Source: Marispirochaeta aestuarii (GTDB lineage Bacteria > Spirochaetota > Spirochaetia > JC444 > Marispirochaetaceae). Taken from it: a stretch of 64,000 nt of DNA. The stretch covers positions 124,001-188,000 of the forward strand of contig NZ_MWQY01000007.1 of NCBI RefSeq assembly GCF_002087085.1. The letters run 5' to 3'. Shown in pieces: positions 25,704-41,558 of the stretch. Below the pieces are notes generated by a model that saw nothing but the letters and a program-made list of their open reading frames with translations, ran no database searches and was not told the origin of the DNA. The position numbers and the translations under genes were made by a program. Each line of letters begins with the position of its first letter. The stretch's first letter is position 1.

Positions 25704-27188
25704 TCAGCCCTCTTCTGACCAGAAGCGTTCGGTAATGATCTTGTCCTCGGTATAAAAATTGACAATCGCCTTGCCCTGGGCCTTGATGTCGGCGAACTGG
25801 GAGTTCTTCATACCGCCGAAGGGAAGGTAGGCCACCGGAGCGGGAATCCCGACGTTCACGCCGATCATGCCGGCCTTGACCTCGATCTTGAACTTCCGGG
25901 CGAACCAGCCGTTCTGGGTGTAGATGGAGGCGCCGTTGCCGTACTGGTGATCGTTGATGATGCCGATTGCCTCGTCCAGGCTGTCGGCCTTCAGAATGAC
26001 CACCACGGGTCCGAAGATCTCGGTCTGGTGGATCTGCATTCCCGGTTTGACCCCGCCGAAAACCGTGGGACCGATATAGTAGCCCTTCTCGTATCCCGCG
26101 ACCTTGATATCCCGGCCGTCCAGGAGCAGTTCGGCCCCCTCCTTGACCCCCGTGTCGATCATCCCCAGGATAAACTCCTTCGCTTTGGCGGAGATTACCG
26201 GTCCCATTACCATGCTCTCGTCGGCCACCGCCGGATCGAGGGGATTGGTGGTGATTACATCCCTGGCTGCCCTGACGAACTCTTCGGTCACCCTGGCGTA
26301 GGTATCGTCCCCGACGCAGACAATGGCGGAGGCAGCCATGCAGCGCTGTCCTGCACAACCGAAACAGGAGGTGATCATGTTCCGGATAACCTCGTTGAGA
26401 CGGGCGTCCGGCATGACCACCAGGTGATTCTTGGCGCCCCCCATGGCCTGGAAGCGTTTGCCGTTCTCAGCGCACTTTCTGGCCATCAGCCTGCAGGTGG
26501 GAGTGGACCCCACCAGGGAGACTCCCTGCACCAGGGGATGTTCCATGAAGGCATCCGCCACAGTCCGGTCACCGTTGATGAGGGTATAGACTCCCGCCGG
26601 AAGTCCCGTCTGATGGATCAGCTCGGTAATGAAGTTCATCGTGTTCGGCACCTGTTTAGAAGCCTTGACGACGAAGCTGTTTCCCGTGGCTATCGCATAG
26701 GGCAGAAACCAGAAGGGGACCATGGCGGGAAAGTTAAAGGGAGCAATCATACCAAAAACCCCCATGGGAAGACGGATCACCTCTCCGTCGATCTCGAAGG
26801 AGGCCCCGATCAGCTTGTCGCCCTGCTGCATCACCGGCATGCCGCAGGCCACCTCGACGTTTTCGAAAACCCGCTTCATCTCCGCCCTGGCGTCAGGCAA
26901 AGACTTGCCCATCTCCTCCACCAGAATGCGGCTGATCTTCTCCTCGTTCTCCTCCAGTAAATCCCGCAGCTTGAAGAGGTAGCTCACCCGCCTGGAGACG
27001 GGAACATCCTTCCAGGAAAGATAGGCCTCGTAGGCTGCTTCAATCGCCCTGTCGGTCTCCTGCCGCGGGGTCAGGGGGACCTGGGAGATCACCTCTCCGG
27101 TGCTCGGGTTTTCAACATCCAGGTAGGACGCGCCGGCGGGATCCACCCACGCGCCGTTTACATAGTTCTTGAGTTTACGGACTGCCAT
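25704..27188 (-). CDS. mmsA: CoA-acylating methylmalonate-semialdehyde dehydrogenase family
   Basis: A 494-residue aldehyde dehydrogenase close to MmsA/IolA, which turns (methyl)malonate semialdehyde into propionyl- or acetyl-CoA with NAD+. It has F-N-F-P-A-M-V-P, G-G-A-K-N-H-L-V-V-M-P-D (the Asn-rich form typical of MmsA) and the catalytic Cys in F-G-C-A-G-Q-R-C-M-A. AGGAGA lies 5 nt before the ATG. It is only 9 nt downstream of the transaldolase-like gene but is GC-rich, while everything upstream in the operon is A+T-rich. The true aldehyde is unknown; other acylating substrates are possible. Confidence 0.85.
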   Translation of the reverse strand: MAVRKLKNYVNGAWVDPAGASYLDVENPSTGEVISQVPLTPRQETDRAIEAAYEAYLSWKDVPVSRRVSYLFKLRDLLEENEEKISRILVEEMGKSLPDARAEMKRVFENVEVACGMPVMQQGDKLIGASFEIDGEVIRLPMGVFGMIAPFNFPAMVPFWFLPYAIATGNSFVVKASKQVPNTMNFITELIHQTGLPAGVYTLINGDRTVADAFMEHPLVQGVSLVGSTPTCRLMARKCAENGKRFQAMGGAKNHLVVMPDARLNEVIRNMITSCFGCAGQRCMAASAIVCVGDDTYARVTEEFVRAARDVITTNPLDPAVADESMVMGPVISAKAKEFILGMIDTGVKEGAELLLDGRDIKVAGYEKGYYIGPTVFGGVKPGMQIHQTEIFGPVVVILKADSLDEAIGIINDHQYGNGASIYTQNGWFARKFKIEVKAGMIGVNVGIPAPVAYLPFGGMKNSQFADIKAQGKAIVNFYTEDKIITERFWSEEG

Positions 27189-27197
27189 TATTTTCTC

Positions 27198-28292
27198 CTA
27201 CTCTCCTTGAATATCTGGATCAGACAACATAAGATCCCGTATCATCTGCAACAGTTTATCATAACCTTCAATAAAAGATCTCAAAGTTCTTCTAGTCGCT
27301 CCAAAAGATTCAAATTCCTCTAGAGTTAATCCCTCTTCATCATAAGCTTTTTGGAAATCCGGGAATTTTCTGTACAGTTCATCGATGATTCTATCATCAA
27401 CAGGATCATCTATTCTGTCCTTAACCGTTATATCAGAAGAATTAAATTTTTTCTGCCATCCATATGGAATAGTCATGGATAATTCTCCACCGATAAATTG
27501 TGACCAATGCATATGGTTTCGATAAGCTGCCGCCAATAAACGGGAAGAATAACCACGTTCTTTAAAAATTTTATAAGCCTTTTTTAGAGTTGCCACCCCT
27601 GCCCATTCAAAATAACCAGGATCGGTAATAATCCCTTTGCGATCAGCAACGATTTTTAACCAATCATCAAGGCGTCCTACCATGATTGTGCAAATAGGAC
27701 TCATTGTCGAGCTATCTATCCCTTCCTTTGCTCTGCGTGAGATTCCTCTTTCCACAGCTTCTGCAACCGCAATACTCTGGGGTACGGTAAAACACACCGT
27801 AGCGTTTATGCTTACACCTTTATACGTAAGTTCTTCTATAGTCTCGATACCGGCCTTTGTAACCGGAATCTTTATGTTATTATTTGGATAGAGAGAAGCA
27901 AAATGAATTGCTTGGTCGACCATAACCTCTGAGTTTCGAAAAAATCTTGGGTTGGTTTGAATTGATAATCTCCCTTTTTTTCCATTACTCTTTTCAAAAA
28001 TAGGATGCAGCAGGATTGCTGCCTTCATAGTCATTTCTTCTATGATTCGCCACGCTAATGTTTCCTCATCGGAATCAGATGATTCATCAATCAATGCTTT
28101 TAACCTGGGTTTCCATTCTTCAAACTCCGCTTTAAGCACATTCCCAACGATAACAGGATTGCTAGTTCCACCTACTGCTCCATTTTCAATGGCATAGCTC
28201 ATTTCATTAACCGAGCATGAGTCGTTCCAAAAATCCGTACATGTTGTCTCTGCCATTTCATGGAGCGGTCCATACAATTTAGCATCTTTCAT
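27198..28292 (-). CDS. Transaldolase-family protein
   Basis: A 364-residue TIM-barrel protein of the transaldolase/fructose-6-phosphate aldolase superfamily. The Schiff-base Lys is in N-I-K-I-P-V-T-K-A-G, followed by G-V-S-I-N-A-T-V-C-F-T. T-S-N-P near residue 45 and an H-W-S-Q-F-I-G-G-E segment near 275 are also seen. It is longer than short transaldolases and nearer the TalB/TalA size class. GAGAGG lies 5 nt before the ATG. It follows the exporter gene after 240 nt and lies 9 nt before mmsA. The substrate may be a sugar phosphate or, by neighbourhood, a sulfonated analogue. Confidence 0.82.
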   Translation of the reverse strand: MKDAKLYGPLHEMAETTCTDFWNDSCSVNEMSYAIENGAVGGTSNPVIVGNVLKAEFEEWKPRLKALIDESSDSDEETLAWRIIEEMTMKAAILLHPIFEKSNGKKGRLSIQTNPRFFRNSEVMVDQAIHFASLYPNNNIKIPVTKAGIETIEELTYKGVSINATVCFTVPQSIAVAEAVERGISRRAKEGIDSSTMSPICTIMVGRLDDWLKIVADRKGIITDPGYFEWAGVATLKKAYKIFKERGYSSRLLAAAYRNHMHWSQFIGGELSMTIPYGWQKKFNSSDITVKDRIDDPVDDRIIDELYRKFPDFQKAYDEEGLTLEEFESFGATRRTLRSFIEGYDKLLQMIRDLMLSDPDIQGE

Positions 28293-28533: not shown

Positions 28534-29301
28534 TCACGACACAAGCATTATTATTCCGGTCATACCGAGGACAGCCGATATTATAGGTTTGACATTAAAC
28601 TTACTAAAATAATTGTGAGCCGCATCGCCAATCCATATGCCAAGAAAAAGAAATGGTATCAAAATTGCTGTATCTCGAAAATTTTGCACAGTAAAAGAGC
28701 TTGATATAAAGTAGTTGAGTATTAGAATGGTATTGAAGGTTATCCATAATAAGCTAAGAGTAGATCGAAAGGAACCAAAATCCTTTATAGCTGAGGCAGT
28801 GTATAAAACAATCAGAGGTCCTCCTGAGGCAAAAGCTCCGTGTATTACTCCACCAAGTATTAGCAAGGCATACAAACTCCATCTTTTAACTACACTGAAA
28901 TTATTGATTAGAATCTTGGTTCTATGGGAATTTTTAAATTTTATTATTTTGACTTCAATTAGATTTTTGATAGAGATTATTATAATAAAAATCGCAAGTG
29001 CTTTCTGGAGGAAAGAAGCCTGGAATATCCTGAATATAATTATCCCAAATGGCAATCCAATGGAAACGAAGGCAAGAATAATTAAATATTGCCGGAAAAC
29101 AATCCTTCTCCAATGTAGACATACAATATAAAGAGAGAGAATCCAAGATAAAATCGCTAACGTCGGTATTGCCGCTTTCAGACTAATGATCTGAGATAGA
29201 AAAGGTAAAGCCAGAACTGTCGAACCAAATCCTGTAACAGTTTGAACCAGATGTGTAATTAACACAATAGAACCAGAAGCCAAGATCTGAATAACAGTCA
29301 T
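28534..29301 (-). CDS. TauE/SafE (TSUP) family anion exporter
   Basis: A 255-residue membrane protein with about eight helices and the TSUP repeat signs: T-H-L-V-Q-T-V-T-G-F-G near the start and G-G-V-I-H-G-A-F-A-S-G-G-P-L in the second half. The family moves sulfite, sulfonates, thiosulfate or other organic anions across the inner membrane; TauE and SafE were found in sulfonate catabolism. It overlaps the alcohol dehydrogenase gene by 4 nt, so the exported compound is probably a product of this operon. Confidence 0.85.
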   Translation of the reverse strand: MTVIQILASGSIVLITHLVQTVTGFGSTVLALPFLSQIISLKAAIPTLAILSWILSLYIVCLHWRRIVFRQYLIILAFVSIGLPFGIIIFRIFQASFLQKALAIFIIIISIKNLIEVKIIKFKNSHRTKILINNFSVVKRWSLYALLILGGVIHGAFASGGPLIVLYTASAIKDFGSFRSTLSLLWITFNTILILNYFISSSFTVQNFRDTAILIPFLFLGIWIGDAAHNYFSKFNVKPIISAVLGMTGIIMLVS

Positions 29302-30509
29302 ATTACCTTTCTCTTGATAATTGAACGTATAAGCTCAAGATCTATTGGAATAATATTATTATTCATTTTGGGATCATCGAGACAAGCATCAAACGCGGCA
29401 AAAGAATCTCCTCTACCATTCGGATGGAACTGGCTTACCATTGCGTTTTCAAGACTGTCAAAATCAGAACCCAAACCCAAATCCGAACGAAGCCTTTTAA
29501 TCGCAACTCCTAGCTTTTTTACTGCGTTATTTATATTACTGCCATCCGCAATGCTCAGCTCCCTTGCAATACGAAAGAGTTTATTAGCAACATACTCATT
29601 TTTCGAGTTAATATCATACACAGCGTCAGTAAAGAAAGCACATGCATAACCATGGGGTACATGCCACATTTCAGATAGAACAAATGAAAGTGCATGAATA
29701 GCAGCTGTTCCAGTCTTATCAAATGCTATCCCAGCTAAGTTTGCTCCACACAATAGCGAATATCGCTCGTTTGCTCCAGGATATCGTTCTTTTTCACTAT
29801 CAGCGGCTTCTTTCCAAGCTTTTCGGATACTGTTATATATCCTTATAAACGCTTGTTCTGCGATACTATCAGAAACTGCTGAAGCATTCTTATTCCACAG
29901 AGCCTCTAAAGCATGGGTTAAAGCATCAAAACCAGTGATCGCTACCAAGAAAGCTGGCAAAGAAGAAACAAGCTCTTCGCACAATATGGCTGCATTTGGA
30001 CGCAGGAGATCAGAAGCTAACGTATGTTTTCTACCACATCCTGATGTGTATACACCGAACCTTGTAACCTCTGACCCTGTTCCTGTGGTTGTGGGAACAA
30101 GTACAAGAGGAATCCCATTTTTTAATACTTTTCGTATCGCATCCCTTCCAAGATACTCATCAAGTTTTCCTTGATTGATTAGAAGCATGGCGACAGCCTT
30201 TGCTGAGTCAAGAGTCGAACCGCCACCGATGCCAATAATCAGATTTGGTTTTAATTTCTTTGCAGACTCAACCATTATGTCTATATCTCGGCATTCAGGA
30301 TTAGGTACAATTCTATCTAAAACAGTTATCTCCTTTTCTATTGAAAGTTTATCCAATACTGTTTCTATAACAGGGTCGCTTCTCGGATCTTTGATAATTA
30401 AGATCGGTCCATCATTAGCGTCCAAATATAATAAAACCCGATTAATAACATCCAAAGAAAAAGTCTTTGTTTCGACAATTTGTACTTGACTTGCCAGGAA
30501 TTCGATCAT
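29298..30509 (-). CDS. Iron-containing (group III) alcohol dehydrogenase
   Basis: A 403-residue enzyme with the NAD(P)-binding G-I-G-G-G-S-T-L-D-S-A-K, P-T-T-T-G-T-G-S-E and metal ligands in G-F-D-A-L-T-H-A-L-E-A, A-I-H-A-L and V-P-H-G. The family usually reduces aldehydes to alcohols in fermenting bacteria. It lies 9 nt after the RpiB-like gene. In this operon the likely role is disposal of an aldehyde from transketolase or transaldolase cleavage, with the reduced product exported by the TSUP protein (inference). Confidence 0.88.
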   Translation of the reverse strand: MIEFLASQVQIVETKTFSLDVINRVLLYLDANDGPILIIKDPRSDPVIETVLDKLSIEKEITVLDRIVPNPECRDIDIMVESAKKLKPNLIIGIGGGSTLDSAKAVAMLLINQGKLDEYLGRDAIRKVLKNGIPLVLVPTTTGTGSEVTRFGVYTSGCGRKHTLASDLLRPNAAILCEELVSSLPAFLVAITGFDALTHALEALWNKNASAVSDSIAEQAFIRIYNSIRKAWKEAADSEKERYPGANERYSLLCGANLAGIAFDKTGTAAIHALSFVLSEMWHVPHGYACAFFTDAVYDINSKNEYVANKLFRIARELSIADGSNINNAVKKLGVAIKRLRSDLGLGSDFDSLENAMVSQFHPNGRGDSFAAFDACLDDPKMNNNIIPIDLELIRSIIKRKVI

Positions 30510-30518
30510 TAAAGAACC

Positions 30519-31004
30519 CTATCTCATAGTCCTGGTCTCAAGTTCAACAACTTGATTAAAAGCATTAGTAAGGAAATCTTTCTTGAACTCCATTTTCTGA
30601 GTGAAGGATACCGAAAGCCATGCTTCTACTATCTGTGTTGCAAGAAAAGGGGCTGTTATCCACCCTCCCATAGTGATAATATTAGCATTATTAATAATCT
30701 TAGATCGCTCTGCAGCAAAGACCCCATCCACAACACAGGCATAAATCCCTTTATGCTTGTTGGCTACAATTGCCATTCCCTGACCAGTACCGCATATCAG
30801 AATACCTTTATCCGCCTTTCCCTCTTGGATACATTCTGCTACCTTTGGGGCTTGGATGAAATATGGCTGAGGGTGTTCTTCATCCTCTATTCCAAAATCA
30901 ATAATATTAAGGTCATCTTTTTCTTTCAGATAATCCACAACTGCATTCTTAAGAGGAAAGCCGGATAAATCTGACGCAATAGCGATTGTATTTTCCTTTT
31001 TCAC
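30519..31004 (-). CDS. RpiB/LacAB-fold sugar isomerase with lost active-site histidines
   Basis: A 161-residue protein of the ribose-5-phosphate isomerase B family. The catalytic loop I-C-G-T-G-Q-G-M is intact (Cys and Thr), followed by A-N-K. The usual D-H-(A/G)-G reads D-L-S-G, the usual H-N-x-A-N reads I-N-N-A-N, and the Arg-rich phosphate end reads E-F-K-K-D. In characterised enzymes the first His contacts phosphate and the second helps open the sugar ring, so the substrate is probably not a ring-forming sugar phosphate. GTG start in GTGA overlap with the transketolase gene; AGGAG 6 nt upstream. Confidence 0.85.
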   Translation of the reverse strand: MKKENTIAIASDLSGFPLKNAVVDYLKEKDDLNIIDFGIEDEEHPQPYFIQAPKVAECIQEGKADKGILICGTGQGMAIVANKHKGIYACVVDGVFAAERSKIINNANIITMGGWITAPFLATQIVEAWLSVSFTQKMEFKKDFLTNAFNQVVELETRTMR

Positions 31005-31936
31005 ATAGCACTCCTATGTAGTACCGCCTGTATAATTGATTCATGACTCAAGCCATAATTCATCTTCAACCATTCTTCTGTTCCAACCTGCCCAAATAAA
31101 TCATCAACTCCAATTCTGACTAATGGTACAGATAGTCCATTTTCTGCTATCAACTCTGCAACTGCACTACCTAGTCCATTTTTTTTCTGATGATTCTCGC
31201 AGGTTAGTACAATTTTAGATTCTTTAATCTCTTTAAGTAACAAATCCTCATCAAGAGGTTTTAATGAAAGAACGTCGATCACAGAAACGTGAACCCCTCG
31301 TTCTTCGAGTTCATTGGCAGCCAAAAGAGCCTCGTTCAGCATAATACCACCCAAAGCCAATAAAAGGACTCCTCCTTCTCCACCATTCTTTACTATTTTT
31401 GCTTTACCAATTTCAAAGGTTTCATCTTCTTTATACAGAACAGGTAATTCCTTCCTGTATAGACGAAAATAGACAGGCCCTGGATAATCTATCACAGATC
31501 TCAATAACCCAATGCATGAAACAGGATCTGAAGGTTCAATAACAGGGAGCCCTGGAATTATTCTCATTAATCCCAAATCCTCGAAGGGCATATGGGTTCC
31601 GCCATTAAAGGCCGCAGCCACACCAGGATCTGTGCCAACAAGCTTAACTCCAAGTTTCGCGTAGGCTGCCGATATAAAGAATTGATCAAATACACGTCTT
31701 GATGCAAAGCAGCCAAAGGTATGCGCAAAAGGTATTTTGCCTACAGAAGCAAGGCCTGCAGCAATACCTATCATGTTTGATTCAGCAACTCCGGCATTTA
31801 TTTTTCTATCTGGATAACTATCAGCAAAAGACGCGGTTGCTCCTGCTTTTCCGAGATCAGCATCTAAGAAAACAATGCGTTTATCTTTCTCAGCTGTTTT
31901 AAGAAGTTCATCCATGAAAACAGTTCGCATATCCAT
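31001..31936 (-). CDS. Transketolase, C-terminal subunit (split enzyme)
   Basis: A 311-residue protein: the pyrimidine-binding domain with catalytic Glu in I-N-A-G-V-A-E-S-N-M-I-G, and the C-terminal domain (V-S-V-I-D-V-L-S-L-K-P-L-D, then T-C-E-N-H). With the next protein it makes one full thiamine-diphosphate transketolase. Split transketolases are common in archaea and in special sugar pathways of Firmicutes and spirochaetes. The ATG has AGGAG 10 nt upstream; a second ATG lies two codons on. Confidence 0.92.
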   Translation of the reverse strand: MDMRTVFMDELLKTAEKDKRIVFLDADLGKAGATASFADSYPDRKINAGVAESNMIGIAAGLASVGKIPFAHTFGCFASRRVFDQFFISAAYAKLGVKLVGTDPGVAAAFNGGTHMPFEDLGLMRIIPGLPVIEPSDPVSCIGLLRSVIDYPGPVYFRLYRKELPVLYKEDETFEIGKAKIVKNGGEGGVLLLALGGIMLNEALLAANELEERGVHVSVIDVLSLKPLDEDLLLKEIKESKIVLTCENHQKKNGLGSAVAELIAENGLSVPLVRIGVDDLFGQVGTEEWLKMNYGLSHESIIQAVLHRSAM

Positions 31937-31960: not shown

Positions 31961-32791
31961 CTATCTTAGTTCTCTATCTAATGCTTCTAAGGCGTCTTTT
32001 AACTGAGCTGGACTTACTGACATATTATGACTATTAAGATCACCCTCAGCAAATGAGCATCCTTTTCCTTTAATTGTATCAAGGATTATCATAGTAGGCT
32101 TTTCCTTGCTATTTCGTGCAGAGCATATAGCCGAATCAATGAGTTCATGATCATGTCCATCAGCCCTTAGAACATTCCACCCAAAGCTTTGCCATTTTCC
32201 TTCAATATCACCTAGATCCATAACCTCTTGAGTAGGTCCATCAATCTGCATTTTATTGTAATCTGTAAATGCGATAAGTCGTTTGAGCCTGTATTGTGAA
32301 GCAAACATAGCAGCTTCCCAAATTTGTCCTTCGTCAGTCTCACCATCTCCAATAATGCAGTATATCCATCCATTTATCCCATCTATTTTATATCCAAGAG
32401 CCATCCCACAAGCTGCTGACAACCCTTGACCAAGTGAACCTGTAGTCATATCTATTCCAGGGGTTAAATTCCGATCGCAATGGCTGGGCAGCCGAGTTCC
32501 CCCACAATTAAGAGTTAGCAACCACTCCTGCGGGAAAAAACCAACCAGAGAAAGCGTTGCATAAAGAGCCGGTCCAGCGTGTCCCTTCGAAAGTACCAGC
32601 CGGTCACGATCTATTTTTGATGGATTTTGTGGGTCGCAATTTATCCAACGTCCATACAAGACTGCAAGAGCATCAATAATGGACATGGTACCTCCGACAT
32701 GCCCTACCCCAAGATTTCCTATTCCCTGTAAAGCCAACTTCCGTATTTCTGTAGCAAATCTTACAGATTCGCCGATCTCAGTGGCAGTCAC
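31961..32791 (-). CDS. Transketolase, N-terminal subunit (split enzyme)
   Basis: A 276-residue thiamine-diphosphate-binding half: S-K-G-H-A-G-P-A-L-Y, G-S-L-G-Q-G-L-S, and the cofactor motif G-D-G-E-T-D-E-G-Q-I-W-E-A with its distal N in D-Y-N-K. G-H-V-G-G-T near residue 30 replaces the common G-H-x-G-G-S/P. GTG start at 32791 with AGGAG upstream. It is followed after 24 nt by the C-terminal half. Confidence 0.92.
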   Translation of the reverse strand: MTATEIGESVRFATEIRKLALQGIGNLGVGHVGGTMSIIDALAVLYGRWINCDPQNPSKIDRDRLVLSKGHAGPALYATLSLVGFFPQEWLLTLNCGGTRLPSHCDRNLTPGIDMTTGSLGQGLSAACGMALGYKIDGINGWIYCIIGDGETDEGQIWEAAMFASQYRLKRLIAFTDYNKMQIDGPTQEVMDLGDIEGKWQSFGWNVLRADGHDHELIDSAICSARNSKEKPTMIILDTIKGKGCSFAEGDLNSHNMSVSPAQLKDALEALDRELR

Positions 32792-32846: not shown

Positions 32847-33692
32847 TTATTTTATAGCTCCCATCGTCATCCCTCGTATTACATATTTTTGCAGGAAAAT
32901 GAACGCGATGATAATCGGGAGACTAGCAAGGGCTGAAAAAGACATCATTGTGGTCCAATCTGTAACAAATTCAGAAAGTAAACTGTAAATAGCAATAGTT
33001 AAAACCCTGTTGCTCCATGATTCAACAACAATCATCGCAAAAAGGAATTCATTCCAAGCCAAAAGGAATGTATATAAACCTGTACCGACCATTGCAGGGA
33101 AACTAATTCGAATCGTTACGCGCCATAACGCCCCAAGTCGTGTACATCCGTCAACCATTGCCGCTTCCTCAAGCTCGATGGGCAGTTCCTGAAAATAATT
33201 CCTGAGCATTAAAATGGAAAAAGGCAGGCAAAAACTAAGATACACTAGAATAAGAGATAGGAGATTGTCATAAAGACCCAGTTTTACAACGACCTGGAAA
33301 TATGGCAATGACAGCAATACTAACGGGAAGGTCTGAGTAGCAAGGAGAAAAAGGATTAAAGCTCTTTTCCCGCGGAAATTAAATCGTGCAAGACCATATC
33401 CCGATAAACTTCCAAAAAAAAGAGCAAGTAAGGTAACAGTTAAAGAGACAAAATAACTGTTCCAAAAGCATCGTAAATATCTCAAGTTAGTTAAAACTTT
33501 TTTATATGAATCAAATGTGAATTTTTCGGGAATCCATGTCGGTGGAATCTTCAATACTTCAACATTCGGTCGGAAGGAAACAGTGACCATCCATGCAACT
33601 GGAAGTAGAAGGACTATACCAAAAGAGAGGAGTACAGCATAAAGAGTAAGACGGGAGATTTTCCGTTGAACCCTGTAAGATGACTTAATCAT
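32847..33692 (-). CDS. Sugar ABC transporter permease, MalG type
   Basis: A 281-residue permease with six helices and the EAA loop E-L-P-I-E-L-E-E-A-A-M-V-D-G-C-T-R-L-G-A before the last two helices. It pairs with the permease encoded just upstream, overlapping it by 8 nt. No ATPase gene is present in the operon; the transporter probably uses a shared MsiK/UgpC-type ATPase from elsewhere. Confidence 0.93.
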   Translation of the reverse strand: MIKSSYRVQRKISRLTLYAVLLSFGIVLLLPVAWMVTVSFRPNVEVLKIPPTWIPEKFTFDSYKKVLTNLRYLRCFWNSYFVSLTVTLLALFFGSLSGYGLARFNFRGKRALILFLLATQTFPLVLLSLPYFQVVVKLGLYDNLLSLILVYLSFCLPFSILMLRNYFQELPIELEEAAMVDGCTRLGALWRVTIRISFPAMVGTGLYTFLLAWNEFLFAMIVVESWSNRVLTIAIYSLLSEFVTDWTTMMSFSALASLPIIIAFIFLQKYVIRGMTMGAIK

Positions 33693-34605
33693 TCCCAGTC
33701 TCTCCTTTTTTTAAATTACGTATATAGAAAGTACTAAATATCAACATTACCAGGAACATTATAACGGCCTCAGCGGCAGCATATCCCCATTTGAGAGATC
33801 GGAAAGCAAGGTTATATATATGAGTAGTCATGACCTCTGAACTATTCATAGGACCGCCGCCTGTCATGGCAAATATGATATCAAAATGTCTAAAAGTCCA
33901 AATTATATCCAATAATCCTACAGTAAACATTGTCCCTTTCAGTGCAGGGATTGTGATGTAAAAGAAACTTTTAATTGGAGATGCCCCATCAATTCTGGCA
34001 GCTTCATACAGCTCATCAGGGATCCCTTGTAATGCAGCCAGTAACATTACCATCGTAAAAGGATAACCTCTCCAGATATTTACTACTGTAACGGATAATA
34101 ACGAAAGATTTGGATTCCCAATCCAGTTGATGCTCTGGCCGCGTCCACTTAGGAGATTAAATGACGTCAGTAAACCATTCAACATTCCGAAAGGGTTATA
34201 TATGAGTATCCAGATCATTGCGGCAACTGTGGGTGCCAAAAGCCAAGGGATTATCAAAAAACCTCTGAACAAACTACGAATATTAGAATTGATATGTTGA
34301 TTTAGGATCAAAGCCAGGCTCAGTCCGATAAGGAAATGAAATATCACACTGTTTATGGTAAAGTAACTTGTCTGTAATAAAGCTTTCCAGAAAACAGGAT
34401 CAGAAAAAAGTTGAATATAATTTGATAATCCGATAAACTCTCTTTCCAGAAGATTCCCTTGAAAAAAACTCAGAACCATTACTTGAATTAGTGGATACAC
34501 TAAAAGTACAAGTAAAATAATAATGCCGGGTAGAACAAAAAAATATGCCTGCATTTTCTTAAGAGTAAAAAATTTATTGCTACGCAAAATGCCTGTTTCG
34601 ACCAT
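33685..34605 (-). CDS. Sugar ABC transporter permease, MalF/UgpA type
   Basis: A 306-residue permease with six helices and the EAA loop I-P-D-E-L-Y-E-A-A-R-I-D-G-A-S. It is encoded between the binding-protein gene, from which a stem-loop separates it, and the second permease. Carbohydrate uptake transporter-1 family. Confidence 0.93.
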   Translation of the reverse strand: MVETGILRSNKFFTLKKMQAYFFVLPGIIILLVLLVYPLIQVMVLSFFQGNLLEREFIGLSNYIQLFSDPVFWKALLQTSYFTINSVIFHFLIGLSLALILNQHINSNIRSLFRGFLIIPWLLAPTVAAMIWILIYNPFGMLNGLLTSFNLLSGRGQSINWIGNPNLSLLSVTVVNIWRGYPFTMVMLLAALQGIPDELYEAARIDGASPIKSFFYITIPALKGTMFTVGLLDIIWTFRHFDIIFAMTGGGPMNSSEVMTTHIYNLAFRSLKWGYAAAEAVIMFLVMLIFSTFYIRNLKKGETGND

Positions 34606-34624
34606 AAATCTACCTTCTAATTTA

Positions 34625-34662
34625 CAATATGCGGGACCATAGTCTTACAGCCCCGCATATTG
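34625..34662 (-). other. Intercistronic stem-loop after the sugar-binding protein gene
   Basis: A perfect 11-bp stem (CAATATGCGGG / CCCGCATATTG) with a 16-nt loop and no T tract. Such loops after binding-protein genes stabilise the upstream message, so more binding protein than permease is made. A similar element follows dctP at 54,828. Confidence 0.6.
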
Positions 34663-34671
34663 GCGATCAAT

Positions 34672-35961
34672 TTACTTAGAAATTAGTTCTTCCCATTTTA
34701 TAGCTGCATCATCAAGTGCTTGTTTTGCGCTCTTTTTTCCATCAACAAAGTTCTGCACTTCTATAGTCATGATTCGATTAAGTTCAACCTGGTATGGAAG
34801 ATGAGGAATTGCCATAGCATTCGGAAGTCCCATCTGTTCGATAAAAACTTTCATATATTTATTTTCTTTTACAAAAGGTTTATCGGCTACAATCTTGTTT
34901 CCTGGCAAATCACCTGTTGCTCGACACCAGATTTCTCCGCCTATCGGACCGGAGATAAACTTAACAAGTTCCCAGGCTCCCTCTAATTTCTTTTCATCCT
35001 TTGCCGTACTCGAGGGTATGGCAAACAATGATCCTCGTACTATGGTTCCGTTTGTCTCTCCCCAAGGAAGAGTAGTAATTCCGAAATCCTTATCAGGATT
35101 CAGGTTTTTTTGTATTGCTACTCCCCAAGGGCCTTCAAACATCATAGCTATATTCCCAGCGGCAAAATTCCCACGTTTTTCCTTTTCACCATTCTGAAGA
35201 ATACCCGGAACAGAAGTTTCGCTCTCAACCATCAGTTCCTTATAAAACTCAAGAGCTTTTACACCAGCGTCACTATTAAATACTGGCTTATTGTTTTCAT
35301 CGACGATCTTTGCCCCAGCTTGAAACATGAGAGGGTAGATATCATACGTCATATTCGTAGGAGGTTCTGTTGCAAGAGTTCCGGTGAACGCATACTGGTT
35401 CTTTTCTGGTTTTGTAACCTTTTTAGCTATTTCCGTCAGTTCAGCCCAACTTTTCGGGGGCTGACTGATCCCCTCCCGTGCAAAAATATCCGTATTATAG
35501 TATAGGGCTACACAACCTGCATGCAGAGGTAGAGAATATCGTTTACCCTCAACCTGCATCTTAAACGCATCATAATACTGATCAAGAAAATTGGCCGGTT
35601 CTTCAGCGACAAGAGGGTCTAGAGTAGTTATGATCTTGGACTGTGCAAATTCTCCAACCCAGTCTACCTGAACAAGGATAACTTCCGGTAACTGTTGCGC
35701 CTGCGCTAATGTAACAACCTTGTCATGAAAACCATTAAAAGGATGATCGACAAGGGTCAGAGTGAAGTCTGGATTGGCTTTCTCAAATTCTGCTTTAAGC
35801 TCATCCATAACCTCTTGACCAACTTCTGTTGTTTTCCACTGCATCCATCTGATCTCTGTCTTTCCATCCGCAGTAGCTTCCTGTCCCCCGCCAGCCCAGA
35901 CGTTCCCAATGGCAATCGTAATAATTATTATTACAGCCACAGTTCTGAGTTTTTTCCTCAT
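34672..35961 (-). CDS. Sugar ABC transporter extracellular binding protein
   Basis: A 429-residue family 1 extracellular solute-binding protein. The signal peptide ends A-G-G-G-Q-E, a spirochaete-like style without a lipobox Cys. The mature part has W-M-Q-W-K-T, the F-E-G-P-W-G segment and the usual two-lobe pattern. The ATG at 35961 is chosen because GGAGG lies 5 nt upstream; 17 more codons are open. First gene of the A+T-rich operon. The substrate is unknown, probably a mono- or glycosylated sugar. Confidence 0.92.
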   Translation of the reverse strand: MRKKLRTVAVIIIITIAIGNVWAGGGQEATADGKTEIRWMQWKTTEVGQEVMDELKAEFEKANPDFTLTLVDHPFNGFHDKVVTLAQAQQLPEVILVQVDWVGEFAQSKIITTLDPLVAEEPANFLDQYYDAFKMQVEGKRYSLPLHAGCVALYYNTDIFAREGISQPPKSWAELTEIAKKVTKPEKNQYAFTGTLATEPPTNMTYDIYPLMFQAGAKIVDENNKPVFNSDAGVKALEFYKELMVESETSVPGILQNGEKEKRGNFAAGNIAMMFEGPWGVAIQKNLNPDKDFGITTLPWGETNGTIVRGSLFAIPSSTAKDEKKLEGAWELVKFISGPIGGEIWCRATGDLPGNKIVADKPFVKENKYMKVFIEQMGLPNAMAIPHLPYQVELNRIMTIEVQNFVDGKKSAKQALDDAAIKWEELISK

Positions 35962-36019
35962 GTATGCCTCCCGAACAATTTTTTTTACAATTCTCATAGT
36001 TAAGAACTGCACTGTTAGA

Positions 36020-36121: not shown

Positions 36122-37354
36122 ATGTTGTTCCGTGTTATAAATATTGATGTGAAGAGTGCTTTTTCAGCGGAAAAAGTCATTTGTCTAACCGCGTTATTAG
36201 GCTATTCCGTAGCTGCTTTACTTTTTCTATTCAGTCCACGAATAATACTATTACCAAAATACTGGGTTCAACAGGTACTAGTATTACTCATCATCGATTG
36301 CGGTTTGTCTATGATTCTATACCGGACAAAAAACTCAGTCGGCATAATCTGTATACTCTTATTGGAATACGCAATACTTTTGCTCATTAGTTACCCTGAA
36401 AGTGACGACCTACAGATTGCGACTGTGTTAATGTTCGTTCTTATTAGTGAGTCAAATTTCAAACTAAAAGGCTTTTCAGGATTCTTTCTTTCTGTAATCT
36501 TTATAGGAGTATTCGTAATAAGCCGACCTTCCGAACCTATCTGGTCATCAAACTTTTTTACGCCATCAGCAACGGATTTGATTGCCTTTTGTTTCTTTAG
36601 TCTTTTTACCTCCTCTTTAACAACTCTTCTCCACATGTATCAATCGATAGCAGTGCGAGAAATGCAGACGATTAAACAACTGGAAAATAACATCCATAAA
36701 TTGACAAATGTAAATATCGATTTTCAAGATTATGCAGCGGCAATCGGTTTTCAATCCATTGAAAATGAACGAAAAAGAATCTCACGGGAAATCCATGATA
36801 CAATTGGATATTCCCTTACAAATATAATAATGATGATGGAAGCAGCTTCAGATATTACTCCACAAGATTCTGAAAAGCTCTCATCTCTTATAGAAATCAC
36901 AAGAACCCAGGCTCAGATGAGTCTGCAGGAAACTCGGCGTGCTCTTCGTGAGCTTCGAATAAATGAGCAAGAACAAATTTCTGGACAAAAGGCGATTAAT
37001 AAACTTATTACAATCTTTGAGAAAGTAACAGGTGTTGAGGTTTCAATCGAATATGGAAATATACCATTAGTACTACCAGACGAGGTAAATAGTTTTTTGT
37101 ATAGAATGATTCAGGAAGGGCTAACAAATGCATTTAAGCATGGTAAGGCAACCAGAATCTCAATTTATTTTTGGATGACCGAACAAAAGATTTTATATAT
37201 CCATGTCCGCGATAATGGAATAGGAGACACAGGGGAGATAATTGAAGGAATTGGCATTGCAGGAATGAAGGAACGAGCAGAGAAATTACACGGTAAGGTA
37301 GAAGCGCGGTACGTATTCGATGGTTTCCAGTTATTTGCAGAAATTCCGCTTTAA
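36122..37354 (+). CDS. NarL-type membrane sensor histidine kinase
   Basis: A 410-residue kinase. About six hydrophobic segments fill residues 15-180, a coiled coil follows, then the HisKA_3 dimerisation box with phospho-acceptor in R-I-S-R-E-I-H-D-T-I-G-Y, and a HATPase domain (E-G-L-T-N-A-F-K-H, D-N-G-I-G, G-I-A-G-M-K-E-R). There is no large periplasmic sensor domain, so the signal may be sensed in the membrane. It is divergent from the sugar operon and followed by its regulator. Confidence 0.9.
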   Translation: MLFRVINIDVKSAFSAEKVICLTALLGYSVAALLFLFSPRIILLPKYWVQQVLVLLIIDCGLSMILYRTKNSVGIICILLLEYAILLLISYPESDDLQIATVLMFVLISESNFKLKGFSGFFLSVIFIGVFVISRPSEPIWSSNFFTPSATDLIAFCFFSLFTSSLTTLLHMYQSIAVREMQTIKQLENNIHKLTNVNIDFQDYAAAIGFQSIENERKRISREIHDTIGYSLTNIIMMMEAASDITPQDSEKLSSLIEITRTQAQMSLQETRRALRELRINEQEQISGQKAINKLITIFEKVTGVEVSIEYGNIPLVLPDEVNSFLYRMIQEGLTNAFKHGKATRISIYFWMTEQKILYIHVRDNGIGDTGEIIEGIGIAGMKERAEKLHGKVEARYVFDGFQLFAEIPL

Positions 37355-37390
37355 TTAAATTGTTAATCAAACTATTAGGGGTGCAATATC

Positions 37391-38086
37391 GTGATGGATT
37401 CTATTCGGGTATTGATGGTCGACGATCAGTTACTTTTTGTTGAGAGTCTGAAGGCAGTAATTGAAACGAGAGCAGATGATATATCCATAGTTGGAATAGC
37501 TAGTGACGGAAATGAAGCAATAACCATGGCCGAGCATTTTCGACCTGATGTTATTCTCATGGATGTGCGTATGCCTTCGTTGGACGGGGTAAAAGCAACC
37601 AGGATTATACATGAAAGATTTCCGGATATCCAGGTAATGATGTTAACAACTTTCGATGATGATGAATATGTTTGCGAAGCTCTTTCCTGTGGGGCAGTCG
37701 GCTATCTTTTGAAAGATATTCCGCCAAGTGAGGTAATTGCATCAATTCGAGCAGTTAAAGAAGGGTCGGTCTTAATTTCTGCTTCAGTAGCATCTAAAAT
37801 CATTCGGATAATTTCTTCTAGTCATATTAAAGAAGAACATGAAAAGAATAGCGAAAAATTACCCGATGAACTAAAAGACCTCAGCCACAGAGAAAGGGAA
37901 GTACTTGTTCTCTTATCAAAAGGTTTGAACAATAAAGAAATTGCTGACCGTCTGTTTTTAGCGGAGCAAAGTGTTAAGAACCTTGTGAGTGTAATTTATT
38001 CAAAAATTGGTACTCATAGCAGGCTTGAAGCTATGCGCATCGTAATGAAGACAAATCTTTTTGATTCCGACCCCGATAACGATTAA
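37391..38086 (+). CDS. NarL/LuxR-type response regulator
   Basis: A 231-residue protein with a receiver domain (V-D-D-Q, phospho-acceptor in V-I-L-M-D-V-R-M-P) and a C-terminal LuxR HTH (L-S-H-R-E-R-E-V-L, N-N-K-E-I-A-D-R-L). Start is GTG at 37391 or the ATG right after it; AGGGG lies 9 nt before the GTG. It probably controls the divergent sugar operon through the GTAC repeats. A+T-rich like the rest of this island; it ends 14 nt before the converging restriction gene. Confidence 0.92.
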   Translation: MMDSIRVLMVDDQLLFVESLKAVIETRADDISIVGIASDGNEAITMAEHFRPDVILMDVRMPSLDGVKATRIIHERFPDIQVMMLTTFDDDEYVCEALSCGAVGYLLKDIPPSEVIASIRAVKEGSVLISASVASKIIRIISSSHIKEEHEKNSEKLPDELKDLSHREREVLVLLSKGLNNKEIADRLFLAEQSVKNLVSVIYSKIGTHSRLEAMRIVMKTNLFDSDPDND

Positions 38087-38100
38087 CTTAATCCTGGGAA

Positions 38101-41100
38101 TCAGGATTTCAAAGCTTTGCTCAGTAATAGAATAGTGTCCATCCAATGTTGGAGTTCGGCGACTGCTTTTTCCAAGTCCGACAGCTCTTCGTCCTGGTGA
38201 GCAATATAATGGTTCCTAAAATCATTAACCCGGCTCACTGCCTGGAGCATATGCTTAGCACCGTTGAAGTCGAACACCTTTCTCACAGCCGAAAAGACTC
38301 CTCCGATCTCCAACGTATCTTCCAAGGCAAACTGCAGACAGTTCCGAAGTAATCCCGTCGGGGAGAGGCCGTTCCCGAAGACAATAGTCCGTTTGAGGTT
38401 GTATCCAAGCTGTTCGATCCGTTTCTGTTCTCCGTGTTCAAGGTCCGGAGGTAGCTTCGGAGTAAACCACCGCTTTTGATCCTCCACGGATCGTGGCAGG
38501 AGAGGCTCCAGCTGTTTCTGTACCACTCGGGTGCATACGTCGTCTATGGGGCCAAGAAGAGCGGTGAACGCCGGAGCGTAGCTCTTCGATTTCTTGTTGG
38601 CGAGGAACTCGGCCAGTTGTCCTGCCTGGACGACGGCATCCTTGTACCGGTCAGGAAGATACTGGAGGGTTTCTTCGGCGACCCACTTCAGGGTTTCCTC
38701 CTCTTCCTCGTCGTAGGGTTGCGCCTGTGCGAAAAGCGGCAAGTCGGGCATCCGTTCTTCGTCCAGGAGGGACTGGAGGCTCGGTTCGCACGCACGTGCA
38801 AGGGCTGATATCTCTGTAGCCGTTGAGCGTTTGTAGACCCCCTCCTGTATGTAGAGGTACTGCCATTTGGTACCAATCTGAGAAGCGGACTCGCACCAGG
38901 CTACCGCAGCTCGGGCTTTGCGGGGTACATCCCGGTCTTCCCTGCCTTTGGTCTCAACGAGAAAGTACGTTCCAACCTTGGTGCGGACGATGAAGTCCGG
39001 AGTGTAGAAGGCCAGCATCCCGGATCCCGCAATGTAGTCGATCCGGAGGCACTGGGGACCGGCATTCTTGGCGAAAGCGGCGACATCCGTTGCCTGGGTA
39101 TCCGTAAACTGAGCAAAGCCGAGCTCGAGGCTGCGGTTGCAGGGAACGAGGTTGAATGGCGTGCGGTCCGCCTGGATTGTCGGATGCTTCTCACTGTGAG
39201 TGACCTGATAGGGCTTCCACTCCGAGAGCTTCATGGCATCCGGCAGATGCGACCGTTCCTGCCGCTTCGTGATCCGGGATCGGATAAGAGGTACGAACAC
39301 AGCCCTGACATGCTCGGCAACGTCGGAATCGCCGATCCGGTTGGCGAGCTCCTGATCAAAGATGCTTGTCGGATTGTCGAACAGCACTGATTCGAAAAAG
39401 TGCTGAAGCAGGGGTGCCAGTTGCTTGTGCAAGCCCCGGACCCGGCAGACTTCTTCGAGCTCACGGGTGTAGTAGGAAATTGCTCCGGCACCATTGCTTA
39501 GGAGCGGGAGGTGAAGCTTCATCCGTTCGACGACTTCATTGGTAAGGAGTTGTCGTCCCTCGTACTCCAACTCCGTTGACGTAACACTTCCAAGGGGTAG
39601 CTTCGTGTACTTCGACTTCAACCACTCCTGCTCGATATCCTTCTTGGACAGACCGGAGACGTCGGCAACGGTCCGATAGCCGGGTGCCAGGCTTGGAACC
39701 TCGAGTTCCAACTCATCCAGGTCCTTATCCGGGTTATCGACATCCGGAAAGATCGAAACGGTGGTGCGAGGAACCTTCTCGGCGTCGACCTCGTCGATGA
39801 ACAGCCCTTCCTGCTGAAGCTCCTGCCGATAGAGGGAGGTGAACTTGGGATGATCGACGATCGTCAGCATCTCGTGTGCGCCGGAGCTTCCCGGAGGCGT
39901 CATTCGACGCAGACCGCGCCCCATTGTCTGTTCAGGAAGGATGTTGGCCTTGGAACTGTACGGCCTCAACGGAACGATCGTGGTAACGTTTCTGACGTCC
40001 CATCCTTCACGAAGCATCAGGACAGACACGATGCAGCGATAGGGGCTTGAGTTCTGATCGAGCTCTCGGCTGAGTTTGCGAAGCTCATTGAGATCGTCGT
40101 CACTGATGTCCTTCTCGGATTCCTCAAAGACGTAGTAGGCGCTGTCTCCACGCCCCTTCTTCTTCAGCTTGCCCTTGAGGTTTGTGTGAAGGTTGATCGT
40201 ACGACCGTTGAGCTCTTCAAAGGTGGGGTCGGTGTTGAGCCGTTGCGCGATCTGGTCGGCTTCCGTCGTATCGGAACACATCACGAAGAGCAATGGCTTC
40301 TTACCGCTTTGCTCCCATTCTTCTTTGCTCTTCTGCCATCGACCGTAGCCGAGGCGTAGATGAGTGTCGTATCGGTAGGCTGCATTGTCTGATGCGCCTT
40401 CATTGAGTGCCTGGCTGGTCCGTCCAATGATCGGCGTCTTGACGATACCGGAATCAACGGCTTCTCCCAGGGGCGTGTCACAGATGATGTGCTTGAAGAG
40501 CTGGCCCTTGTTGTCTTTGGGCGTGGCGCTCAGATCGATCTGTGCAAAGATACCGGTGCCACCGGATTGCTCGATGGAAGTGTGAAGGTAGGCGATTGCC
40601 TCGCTCCAGGCCGAACCGGGGTCCCAGACGTGGTGAGCCTCGTCGTTGAGGACCATAATCGTACGCTTACCAGCAATACGCTCCCGGAGCTCTGCACCGG
40701 AGTTAAATACCTTCGCCTTCTGAACCGTAGGACCCATGAAGGAGTGGAACTCTGCCTGCTTCTTGCCCTTCTTCTTGCTGTTGTCGTAGAGGCGATGAAT
40801 ATTCGTCAGGTAGATCGTCCCGCCGATACTGTCCGGAGCAGCTTCGTCCTGGAGCACAACGCTCATGTTCCAGTCGCCCTTCCATTCCGGGGGAATGAGA
40901 GGGTCGGTCTCGAAGATCTTGCCGTCACCGAAATCTTCCCGCAGACGCTCGTACACGGTGAGGTTTGGAGCGATGATCACGAAATGCTTCGCGGCGTTCG
41001 AGTAGGATTCTCGGAGGTTGTGAAAATAGCTCCACACAACCGCCAGGCTCATAATCTTGGTCTTTCCGGCACCGGTAGCGATCTTCTCCGCGTACCGTGG

Positions 41101-41547
41101 CCACAGATCCTCGTCAGGGGCAATACCGTAAGCGGCTTCCTTCTGCTGATCTGTTCCAAACTTCTCATAAAGTCCGCTCAATGTCGGGCTGTTGTGGATC
41201 TCGGCCAAATAGACGAGGGTCTCGATGGCTTCCCGCTGGCAGAAGTAGTAGCGGAAATCATACTCTTCCCCAGCAGGCGTGGTCTGCCGGTGGGCGCGCT
41301 GAAACCAGTACCCGAAGAGCTGGCGGGTCGTATCACTGGCTCCAGGGTAGTAGTTCTCCCGCCATTCGCTCACCTCACGTCGTAGACTCTGAACGATGGA
41401 GATCGAAGACCTGCGACGACCTGTCTTGATTTCAGATTGCCCAGCCTGCTTCCTTGCCGCTACACGATGAGAGTTGGGCTCTTCCCACGGCTCATAGAGT
41501 GGTTCGATGGCTCCAAGATTGATCCCGGCATTCGTTGATTCAGCCAC
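38101..41547 (-). CDS. Type III restriction enzyme, Res subunit (helicase-nuclease)
   Basis: A 1148-residue protein. The superfamily 2 helicase core has Walker A A-T-G-A-G-K-T (about residue 160), D-E-A-H-H (about 300), L-S-A-T-P and Q-T-M-G-R-G-L-R-R. A C-terminal PD-(D/E)xK nuclease reads T-P-D-F-I-V then V-E-T-K-G near residue 900. A further alpha-helical region of about 200 residues follows, ending F-R-N-H-Y-I-A-H (HEPN/Swt1-like look). All motifs are intact. It works with the Mod subunit encoded 11 nt upstream, which supplies the recognition site. Confidence 0.9.
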   Translation of the reverse strand: MAESTNAGINLGAIEPLYEPWEEPNSHRVAARKQAGQSEIKTGRRRSSISIVQSLRREVSEWRENYYPGASDTTRQLFGYWFQRAHRQTTPAGEEYDFRYYFCQREAIETLVYLAEIHNSPTLSGLYEKFGTDQQKEAAYGIAPDEDLWPRYAEKIATGAGKTKIMSLAVVWSYFHNLRESYSNAAKHFVIIAPNLTVYERLREDFGDGKIFETDPLIPPEWKGDWNMSVVLQDEAAPDSIGGTIYLTNIHRLYDNSKKKGKKQAEFHSFMGPTVQKAKVFNSGAELRERIAGKRTIMVLNDEAHHVWDPGSAWSEAIAYLHTSIEQSGGTGIFAQIDLSATPKDNKGQLFKHIICDTPLGEAVDSGIVKTPIIGRTSQALNEGASDNAAYRYDTHLRLGYGRWQKSKEEWEQSGKKPLLFVMCSDTTEADQIAQRLNTDPTFEELNGRTINLHTNLKGKLKKKGRGDSAYYVFEESEKDISDDDLNELRKLSRELDQNSSPYRCIVSVLMLREGWDVRNVTTIVPLRPYSSKANILPEQTMGRGLRRMTPPGSSGAHEMLTIVDHPKFTSLYRQELQQEGLFIDEVDAEKVPRTTVSIFPDVDNPDKDLDELELEVPSLAPGYRTVADVSGLSKKDIEQEWLKSKYTKLPLGSVTSTELEYEGRQLLTNEVVERMKLHLPLLSNGAGAISYYTRELEEVCRVRGLHKQLAPLLQHFFESVLFDNPTSIFDQELANRIGDSDVAEHVRAVFVPLIRSRITKRQERSHLPDAMKLSEWKPYQVTHSEKHPTIQADRTPFNLVPCNRSLELGFAQFTDTQATDVAAFAKNAGPQCLRIDYIAGSGMLAFYTPDFIVRTKVGTYFLVETKGREDRDVPRKARAAVAWCESASQIGTKWQYLYIQEGVYKRSTATEISALARACEPSLQSLLDEERMPDLPLFAQAQPYDEEEEETLKWVAEETLQYLPDRYKDAVVQAGQLAEFLANKKSKSYAPAFTALLGPIDDVCTRVVQKQLEPLLPRSVEDQKRWFTPKLPPDLEHGEQKRIEQLGYNLKRTIVFGNGLSPTGLLRNCLQFALEDTLEIGGVFSAVRKVFDFNGAKHMLQAVSRVNDFRNHYIAHQDEELSDLEKAVAELQHWMDTILLLSKALKS

Positions 41548-41558
41548 TTCTCACACCC

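Follow-up and report, generated by a model that had tools for sequence, protein, structure and literature searches.

A predicted 4-deoxy-4-sulfoerythrose isomerase, SqwI, in a sulfo-transketolase operon of Marispirochaeta aestuarii

The sqw operon and its gene context

The window, i.e. the whole 64,000-nucleotide stretch of the Marispirochaeta aestuarii genome under analysis, carries at 30519-31004 of its reverse strand a gene whose product is most likely SqwI. This isomerase belongs to a known bacterial pathway for the breakdown of sulfoquinovose, the sugar of the plant sulfolipid. The gene and its neighbours are as follows:

28534..29301 (-): TauE/SafE-family sulfonate exporter, sqwE candidate
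29298..30509 (-): Fe-type alcohol dehydrogenase (sulfoacetaldehyde reductase), sqwF candidate
30519..31004 (-): sqwI, RpiB-fold isomerase, predicted 4-deoxy-4-sulfoerythrose isomerase (from domain, operon, conservation and AlphaFold model)
31001..31936 (-): sqwH, C-terminal (Pyr/C) chain of a split transketolase, with a RAFDR-type change in the phosphate site
31961..32791 (-): sqwG, N-terminal (PP) chain of the split transketolase
32847..33692 (-): ABC sugar permease (MalG type), likely importer, with homologous permeases in related loci
33685..34605 (-): ABC sugar permease (MalF/UgpA type)
34672..36012 (-): extracellular sugar-binding protein of the ABC importer
36122..38086 (+): histidine kinase and response regulator (the latter judged by sequence), a divergent two-component pair

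The start of sqwI overlaps the stop of sqwH by four bases, while the Fe-type alcohol dehydrogenase (Fe-ADH) gene begins nine bases after sqwI and overlaps the TauE-family gene by four bases. Upstream of sqwI lie the N-chain of the transketolase (31961-32791) and the ABC sugar importer (32847-36012), and sqwG-H-I-F-E together with the importer form one tightly packed unit. A gap of ~240 bases separates this operon from the next downstream genes (25704-28292, reverse strand), which encode a transaldolase-family protein (364 aa), scoring far under all transaldolase equivalog cut-offs, and then an aldehyde dehydrogenase resembling methylmalonate-semialdehyde dehydrogenase. Both were considered as pathway genes and rejected, the transaldolase having no homologue and the dehydrogenase one weak match in the related loci. 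On the other side, the histidine kinase and response regulator have no homologues in the related loci, which carry a ROK repressor in their place beside the ABC binding protein; it is possible that the two-component pair regulates the sqw operon instead of the repressor. By sequence, a gene pair at 38101-43634 (-) looks like the Res (1148 aa) and Mod (691 aa) of a type III restriction-modification system.

The sqwI ORF has a GTG start and encodes 161 aa. Its product matches Pfam LacAB_rpiB (PF02502; E 2.8e-39) and falls short of the NCBIfam equivalog cut-offs for RpiB, LacA, LacB and DerI, exceeding only that of the broad subfamily model TIGR00689. The AlphaFold model, built with 43 homologues, has a mean pLDDT of 89.5 (53.5 for the single-sequence version) and its best PDB match is the C. 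thermocellum RpiB 3he8 (TM 0.84/0.91); the protein was modelled as a monomer, and the RpiB-type pocket forms between two subunits.

The 108 loci gathered all have an RpiB homologue, and 98 and 95 of them the two transketolase chains. Sulfoquinovose genes were frequent as well, namely those for an SqvD-like isomerase (48 loci), a YihQ-like glycosidase (42) and SqvB/DUF4867 (38), and the loci had in addition either SqwD/SqwK/SqwL (42-43) or Fe-ADH and TauE of SqwF/E-like type (34-36). The order of Fe-ADH and TauE downstream of the window sqwI matches that in its relatives; the sqwF candidate, which matches the SarD model below cut-off, adjoins sqwI in 34 loci. The sqwG-H-I-F-E context is that of the published sulfo-transketolase (sulfo-TK) cluster for sulfoquinovose, whose SqwI has been proposed to be the 4-deoxy-4-sulfoerythrose isomerase (PMC9594981). 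Spirochaetes are among the listed carriers of this pathway (PMC12890257), and a Sphaerochaetaceae spirochaete showed high sqwGHI transcription while rumen microcosms converted sulfoquinovose to isethionate (PMC13219744).

The partner transketolase has Asp for the His and Ala for the Ser of the phosphate site of phosphate transketolases, and the change of His to Asp recurs in 85/85 close relatives. RAFDR is known to replace RSFHR in sulfofructose transketolases (PMC11659671), and by its motif the SqwGH of the window matches this published type.

In the genome, which is 97% complete, close relatives of SqvD, YihQ, SqvB and YihS were looked for and none was found. The sole candidate for making sulfofructose is distant, a FucI-like protein encoded at 2124-3674 of contig C20 that shares ~23-25% identity with SqvD proteins. 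Its cluster (L056, 269-8658) holds genes for an HpaI aldolase, an odd transaldolase, the FucI-like isomerase, an SDR, a creatininase, an Ldh2-type dehydrogenase, an SMP30 lactonase and a LacI regulator, and it is possibly the source of sulfofructose or else an unrelated sugar-acid pathway; the transaldolase beside the FucI-like isomerase is 27% identical to that of the window. Sulfoquinovosidases are also missing from Caproiciproducens sulfo-TK genomes (PMC13219744). Lack of a sulfoquinovosidase is not unusual; lack of an isomerase is, if its gene is not in the 3% left unassembled. Such entry genes do not belong to SqwI itself.

Conservation of a modified RpiB active site

Residues of the window protein are given below with their E. 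coli RpiB equivalents, and the latter numbering is used in comparisons across sequences. The codons of five of these residues lie at:

30660..30662 (-): Trp115, in the place of Arg110, a phosphate contact (Arg113 in MtRpiB; PMC3755991); Trp in 92/92 SqwI of groups A and B
30693..30695 (-): Ile104, in the place of His99, the ring-opening acid/base of RpiB (PMC3755991)
30705..30707 (-): Arg100, in the place of E. coli Leu95, proposed new anion-binding residue
30792..30794 (-): Cys71, equivalent to E. coli RpiB Cys66, the catalytic base, retained
30966..30968 (-): Leu13, in the place of His10, a phosphate contact of RpiB (PMC4783025)

In RpiB, His99 opens the furanose, and the phosphate is bound by His10, Arg113 of MtRpiB (= Arg110), Arg133 and Arg137 (PMC3755991, PMC4783025). 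The original prediction of an RpiB fold with the C-G-T-G-x-G loop agrees with the domain match. The C66-G-T-G of E. coli RpiB is retained in the form C71-G-T-G-Q-G. The catalytic Cys66/Thr68, Asp9 (D12) and Asn100 are all present, together with Gly67, Tyr43 and Asn103. In contrast, H10 is replaced by L13, H99 by I104, R110 by W115, R133 by M138 and H134 by E139, while in the region of R137 the window protein reads F140-K141-K142-D143 with an insertion of about six residues, which leaves the exact partner of R137 uncertain. The three motifs previously singled out (D-L-S-G, I-N-N-A-N and E-F-K-K-D) are literally in the translation, and the histidines and phosphate arginines are replaced as had been noted; the exchange of R110 for Trp and the Arg gained at position 95 (R100) are additions of the present comparison.

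In 393 genomes from the same phylum, 22 SqwI orthologues were found at 53-76% identity, the next matches being at <=47%, and a scan of GTDB contigs added at least 80 loci, mostly from Spirochaetes, with some from Anaerolineae and Verrucomicrobia. L10, V/I99, W110, M133 and E134, as well as C66, T68, D9 and N100, are constant in 88/88 distinct close homologues, a few of which are perhaps the same gene with an alternative start call. Canonical RpiB sequences (15 of 16 from the same phylum) have H10, H99 and H134 in 16/16. Since they are constant in the 88 homologues against His in all canonical sequences, the pocket replacements are not due to chance, and the odd active site is, judging from the alignments, a trait of the whole SqwI family examined and not a local oddity. 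The exchanges of R110 for Trp and of R133-H134 for M-E extend to 92/92 SqwI of groups A and B. The features specific to SqwI are Trp110, Met133-Glu134, Gln70, Pro42, Gln46 and the C-terminal insertion; W110 on its own does not identify an SqwI, because one RpiB homologue (L032) has it along with both histidines.

In a tree calculated without six diagnostic columns, the SqwI side is split from all other sequences with support of 100/99, and it adjoins EryI/DerI-type sequences with weak support (77/13); the tree, joining the two groups weakly, fits one shared loss of His99 as well as two separate ones. A distant set (L061-L064), whose RpiB is 39-41% identical, shares this gene order, including SqvD and YihQ, and is devoid of both histidines. 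In its isomerase Asp9 is replaced by Thr and His10 by Arg, and its transketolase has Ala at the phosphate site, where Asp or His is found elsewhere; the pocket problem is solved here in a second way.

Plasmid records contained no SqwI homologue above 60% identity. A homologue in a Proteus mirabilis record (L147, 5998-6474; 38% identical), with Pro10, Ile99, Leu110 and a C-terminal insertion, was rejected as an SqwI, as it sits among complex-I-like genes with no sulfo cluster. On a Streptomyces clavuligerus plasmid (L155, 4983-5462), an RpiB homologue with Arg10 and CHTG replacing CGTG adjoins an aminotransferase, a B12 radical SAM protein and a nucleoside phosphorylase, and is probably the isomerase of a biosynthetic cluster.

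Substrate and proposed mechanism

At position 95, Arg occurs in 92/92 SqwI (groups A and B) and in 11/11 EryI/DerI-type isomerases, Lys or Arg in 5/5 of the distant SqwI set, and neither in the 16 canonical RpiB, which have Leu, Met, Phe or Ala there. Arg or Lys at this position pairs with a residue other than His (Ile, Val or Ser) at 99 in SqwI groups A, B and C and in the EryI/DerI-type, the latter having Ser at both 99 and 134 (11/11). This pairing tells more than the loss of the ring-opening His. Ser99 and the loss of His10 are found in the ery operon (L149), in the oiaX operon (L151) and in eight similar unnamed sequences. The combined loss of His99 and His10, which EryI/DerI-type isomerases acting on C4 phosphates share, would point to a C4 substrate and is no indicator of a sulfonate. 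SqwI is set apart from EryI/DerI by the exchange of R110 for Trp, that of R133-H134 for M-E, and the C-terminal insertion.

These comparisons bear on the reasoning by which a sulfonated substrate had been put forward. The loss of the ring-opening His does fit a C4 substrate, as had been argued, and gives no pointer to a sulfonate. In the alignment with RpiB both histidines and the phosphate arginines are lost, as expected, but against EryI/DerI the histidine losses are common to both, and the circumstance named beforehand as a refutation is thus in part real: enzymes of erythrose or erythrulose phosphate have lost H99 and H10. The step from lost phosphate contacts to a non-phosphate anion is weak, for the RpiB of Coccidioides immitis, with one basic contact left, bound phosphate in the crystal (PMC3212906). 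In that protein, which lacks the ring-opening His, phosphate is held by Ser109 (position 99), Ser145 and Lys148; its authors suspected that the substrate is shorter and proposed that Arg105 (position 95) relays charge to the phosphate (PMC3212906). The residues had also been ranked as more specific evidence than gene order, an order which is to be reversed. Among the direct observations, i.e. family, operon, conserved replacements and transketolase motif, it is gene order and the transketolase motif which carry the identification, and gene context is stronger than the residues as evidence for the substrate. The substrate originally proposed, 4-deoxy-4-sulfoerythrose, is nonetheless very probably right, because the gene is the sqwI of a sulfo-transketolase operon (PMC9594981).

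Taken as a whole, the data are best explained by sqwI of a spirochaete sulfo-transketolase operon, with the pathway steps and the sulfonate site at Arg100 described here, a reading in which we have high confidence. What speaks against it is the lack of close SqvD, YihQ, SqvB and YihS relatives in the genome. SqwGH would take a two-carbon unit off 6-deoxy-6-sulfofructose, yielding 4-deoxy-4-sulfoerythrose, which SqwI would convert into 4-deoxy-4-sulfoerythrulose through the usual Cys/Thr ene-diolate chemistry of RpiB. A second two-carbon unit would then be removed by SqwGH, leaving sulfoacetaldehyde, to be reduced by SqwF to isethionate, which SqwE would carry out of the cell. The SqwI substrate would have no free 4-OH and be open-chain, and therefore the ring-opening His would not be needed, its place being now taken by Ile or Val. 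Compared with the phosphate in ribose 5-phosphate, its sulfonate would be nearer to the catalytic Cys by one carbon. The outer phosphate site (H10, R110, R133, H134) would accordingly have been dismantled and filled by Leu, Trp, Met and Glu, and Trp110, Met133-Glu134, Gln70, Pro42, Gln46 and the C-terminal insertion would close it. Arg100, perhaps with Lys141/142, is proposed to help in holding the anion in this nearer position. The activity of the window protein and its sulfonate site are what we infer from these data; the pathway and the proposed role of SqwI come from the literature, in which no SqwI activity has been directly measured, 4-deoxy-4-sulfoerythrose isomerising spontaneously in vitro (PMC9594981).

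This spontaneous isomerisation, seen in assays (PMC9594981), is the basis of a very unlikely alternative, according to which the step proceeds unaided in the cell and SqwI, being strictly conserved all the same, does something else, e.g. acts on another sulfosugar or blocks a side reaction. The Cys, Thr, Asp and Asn of an aldose-ketose isomerase, constant in 88/88, argue against it, as does the presence of an enzyme family for every other step of the pathway. A C4 sugar-phosphate isomerase of EryI/DerI-type, making erythrose 4-phosphate or erythrulose 4-phosphate for the adjoining transketolase, would account for the shared losses of His99 and His10, the gain of Arg95 and the neighbouring position in the tree, weak as it is (77/13). 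It is very unlikely given that the EryI/DerI-type has Ser99 and Ser134 in 11/11, lacks the C-terminal insertion and is mostly basic or polar at 110, that the operon combines a sulfonate exporter and a reductase with no sugar kinase, and that the phosphate site of the transketolase is altered.

Finally, the retained fold and catalytic residues would suit an ordinary housekeeping RpiB, i.e. a ribose 5-phosphate isomerase tolerating the changes. This is highly improbable, as ring-opening His mutants of proven RpiB lose 10-26-fold in kcat or their activity altogether (PMC3755991, PMC4783025), the replaced pocket is conserved throughout the clade, and the genome has another RpiB (G000:C11) with all canonical residues. 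A second RpiB with Pro10, Ser99 and Arg95 was observed on contig C2 (L059, 6223-14132), beside another split transketolase, a transaldolase-family protein, an FGGY kinase, an SDR and TRAP transporters; this locus looks like a C4 or apiose-type sugar pathway.

With the SqwI reading retained, the pairing at positions 95 and 99 suggests for C4-type enzymes an anion bound from position 95, its distance from the Cys being shorter by one carbon. A wider scheme, which we advance tentatively and rate at slightly under even, would divide RpiB-fold isomerases into a class with His99 and Leu/Met/Phe95, acting on furanose-forming C5/C6 phosphates, and a class with non-His99 and Arg/Lys95, acting on open-chain C4 substrates; SqwI would stem from the latter, with its outer phosphate site dismantled and one invariant Arg holding the sulfonate. 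The enzyme family itself is known, and what is new is the family-wide signature and the pairing of Arg95 with non-His99, for which no published description was found in the literature covered, the original 2021 sulfo-TK paper lying outside it. Among the steps of the sulfo-transketolase pathway, that of SqwI is the least characterised; it was assigned by gene order, and measurement of its activity was prevented by the spontaneous isomerisation of the substrate. The signature thus offers a structural hypothesis, with Arg100 as sulfonate anchor, Ile104 for the ring-opening His and Trp115 for the phosphate Arg, and the two-residue rule would sort C4-type from C5/C6-type isomerases, now lumped in databases as 'ribose-5-phosphate isomerase B'.

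Comparison with known isomerases

RpiB shares with SqwI the fold (TM 0.84-0.91 to 3he8), the CGTGxG loop, Asp9 and Asn100, and differs in His10, His99, Arg110, Arg133 and His134, all absent from SqwI. The galactose-6-phosphate isomerase LacAB has the same fold, but is a heteromer keeping His96 (LacA) and three phosphate arginines, while the window SqwI is encoded by a single gene, with neither a two-subunit arrangement nor His96 and Arg130/Arg134 of LacA. The 4-deoxy-L-threo-5-hexosulose-uronate ketol-isomerase (PDB 4u8f) is an RpiB-like fold acting on an unphosphorylated acid; it is only 17-18% identical to SqwI, is about 210 aa long and has another substrate.

The C. immitis RpiB (3qd5/3sdw) resembles SqwI in that the ring-opening His and most phosphate residues are gone, and is unlike it in having Ser at 99 and Lys148 and Ser145 at the phosphate. 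EryI/DerI, the D-erythrose-4-phosphate and D-erythrulose-4-phosphate isomerases of the RpiB family, likewise act on C4 substrates unable to form a furanose, have lost His99 and His10, and have Arg95 and the catalytic Cys/Thr; they differ from SqwI by Ser instead of Ile/Val at 99, by Ser134, by the lack of the C-terminal insertion and, in the ery and oiaX operon examples, by the retention of R110 where SqwI has Trp. The window protein has their Arg95, but neither Ser99 nor an operon with an erythritol or C4-acid kinase.

SqwI of the sulfo-TK pathway has been reported, besides Clostridium sp. MSTE9, in Spirochaetes, Faecalicatena and Caproiciproducens. Unlike the Clostridium cluster, the window operon has no sulfoquinovose isomerase, sulfoquinovosidase or SqvB beside sqwI. 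Compared by family and gene order, the SqwI of Clostridium sp. MSTE9 is like the window gene, a PF02502 protein adjoining sqwGH, an SqwF-type Fe-ADH and an SqwE-type exporter.
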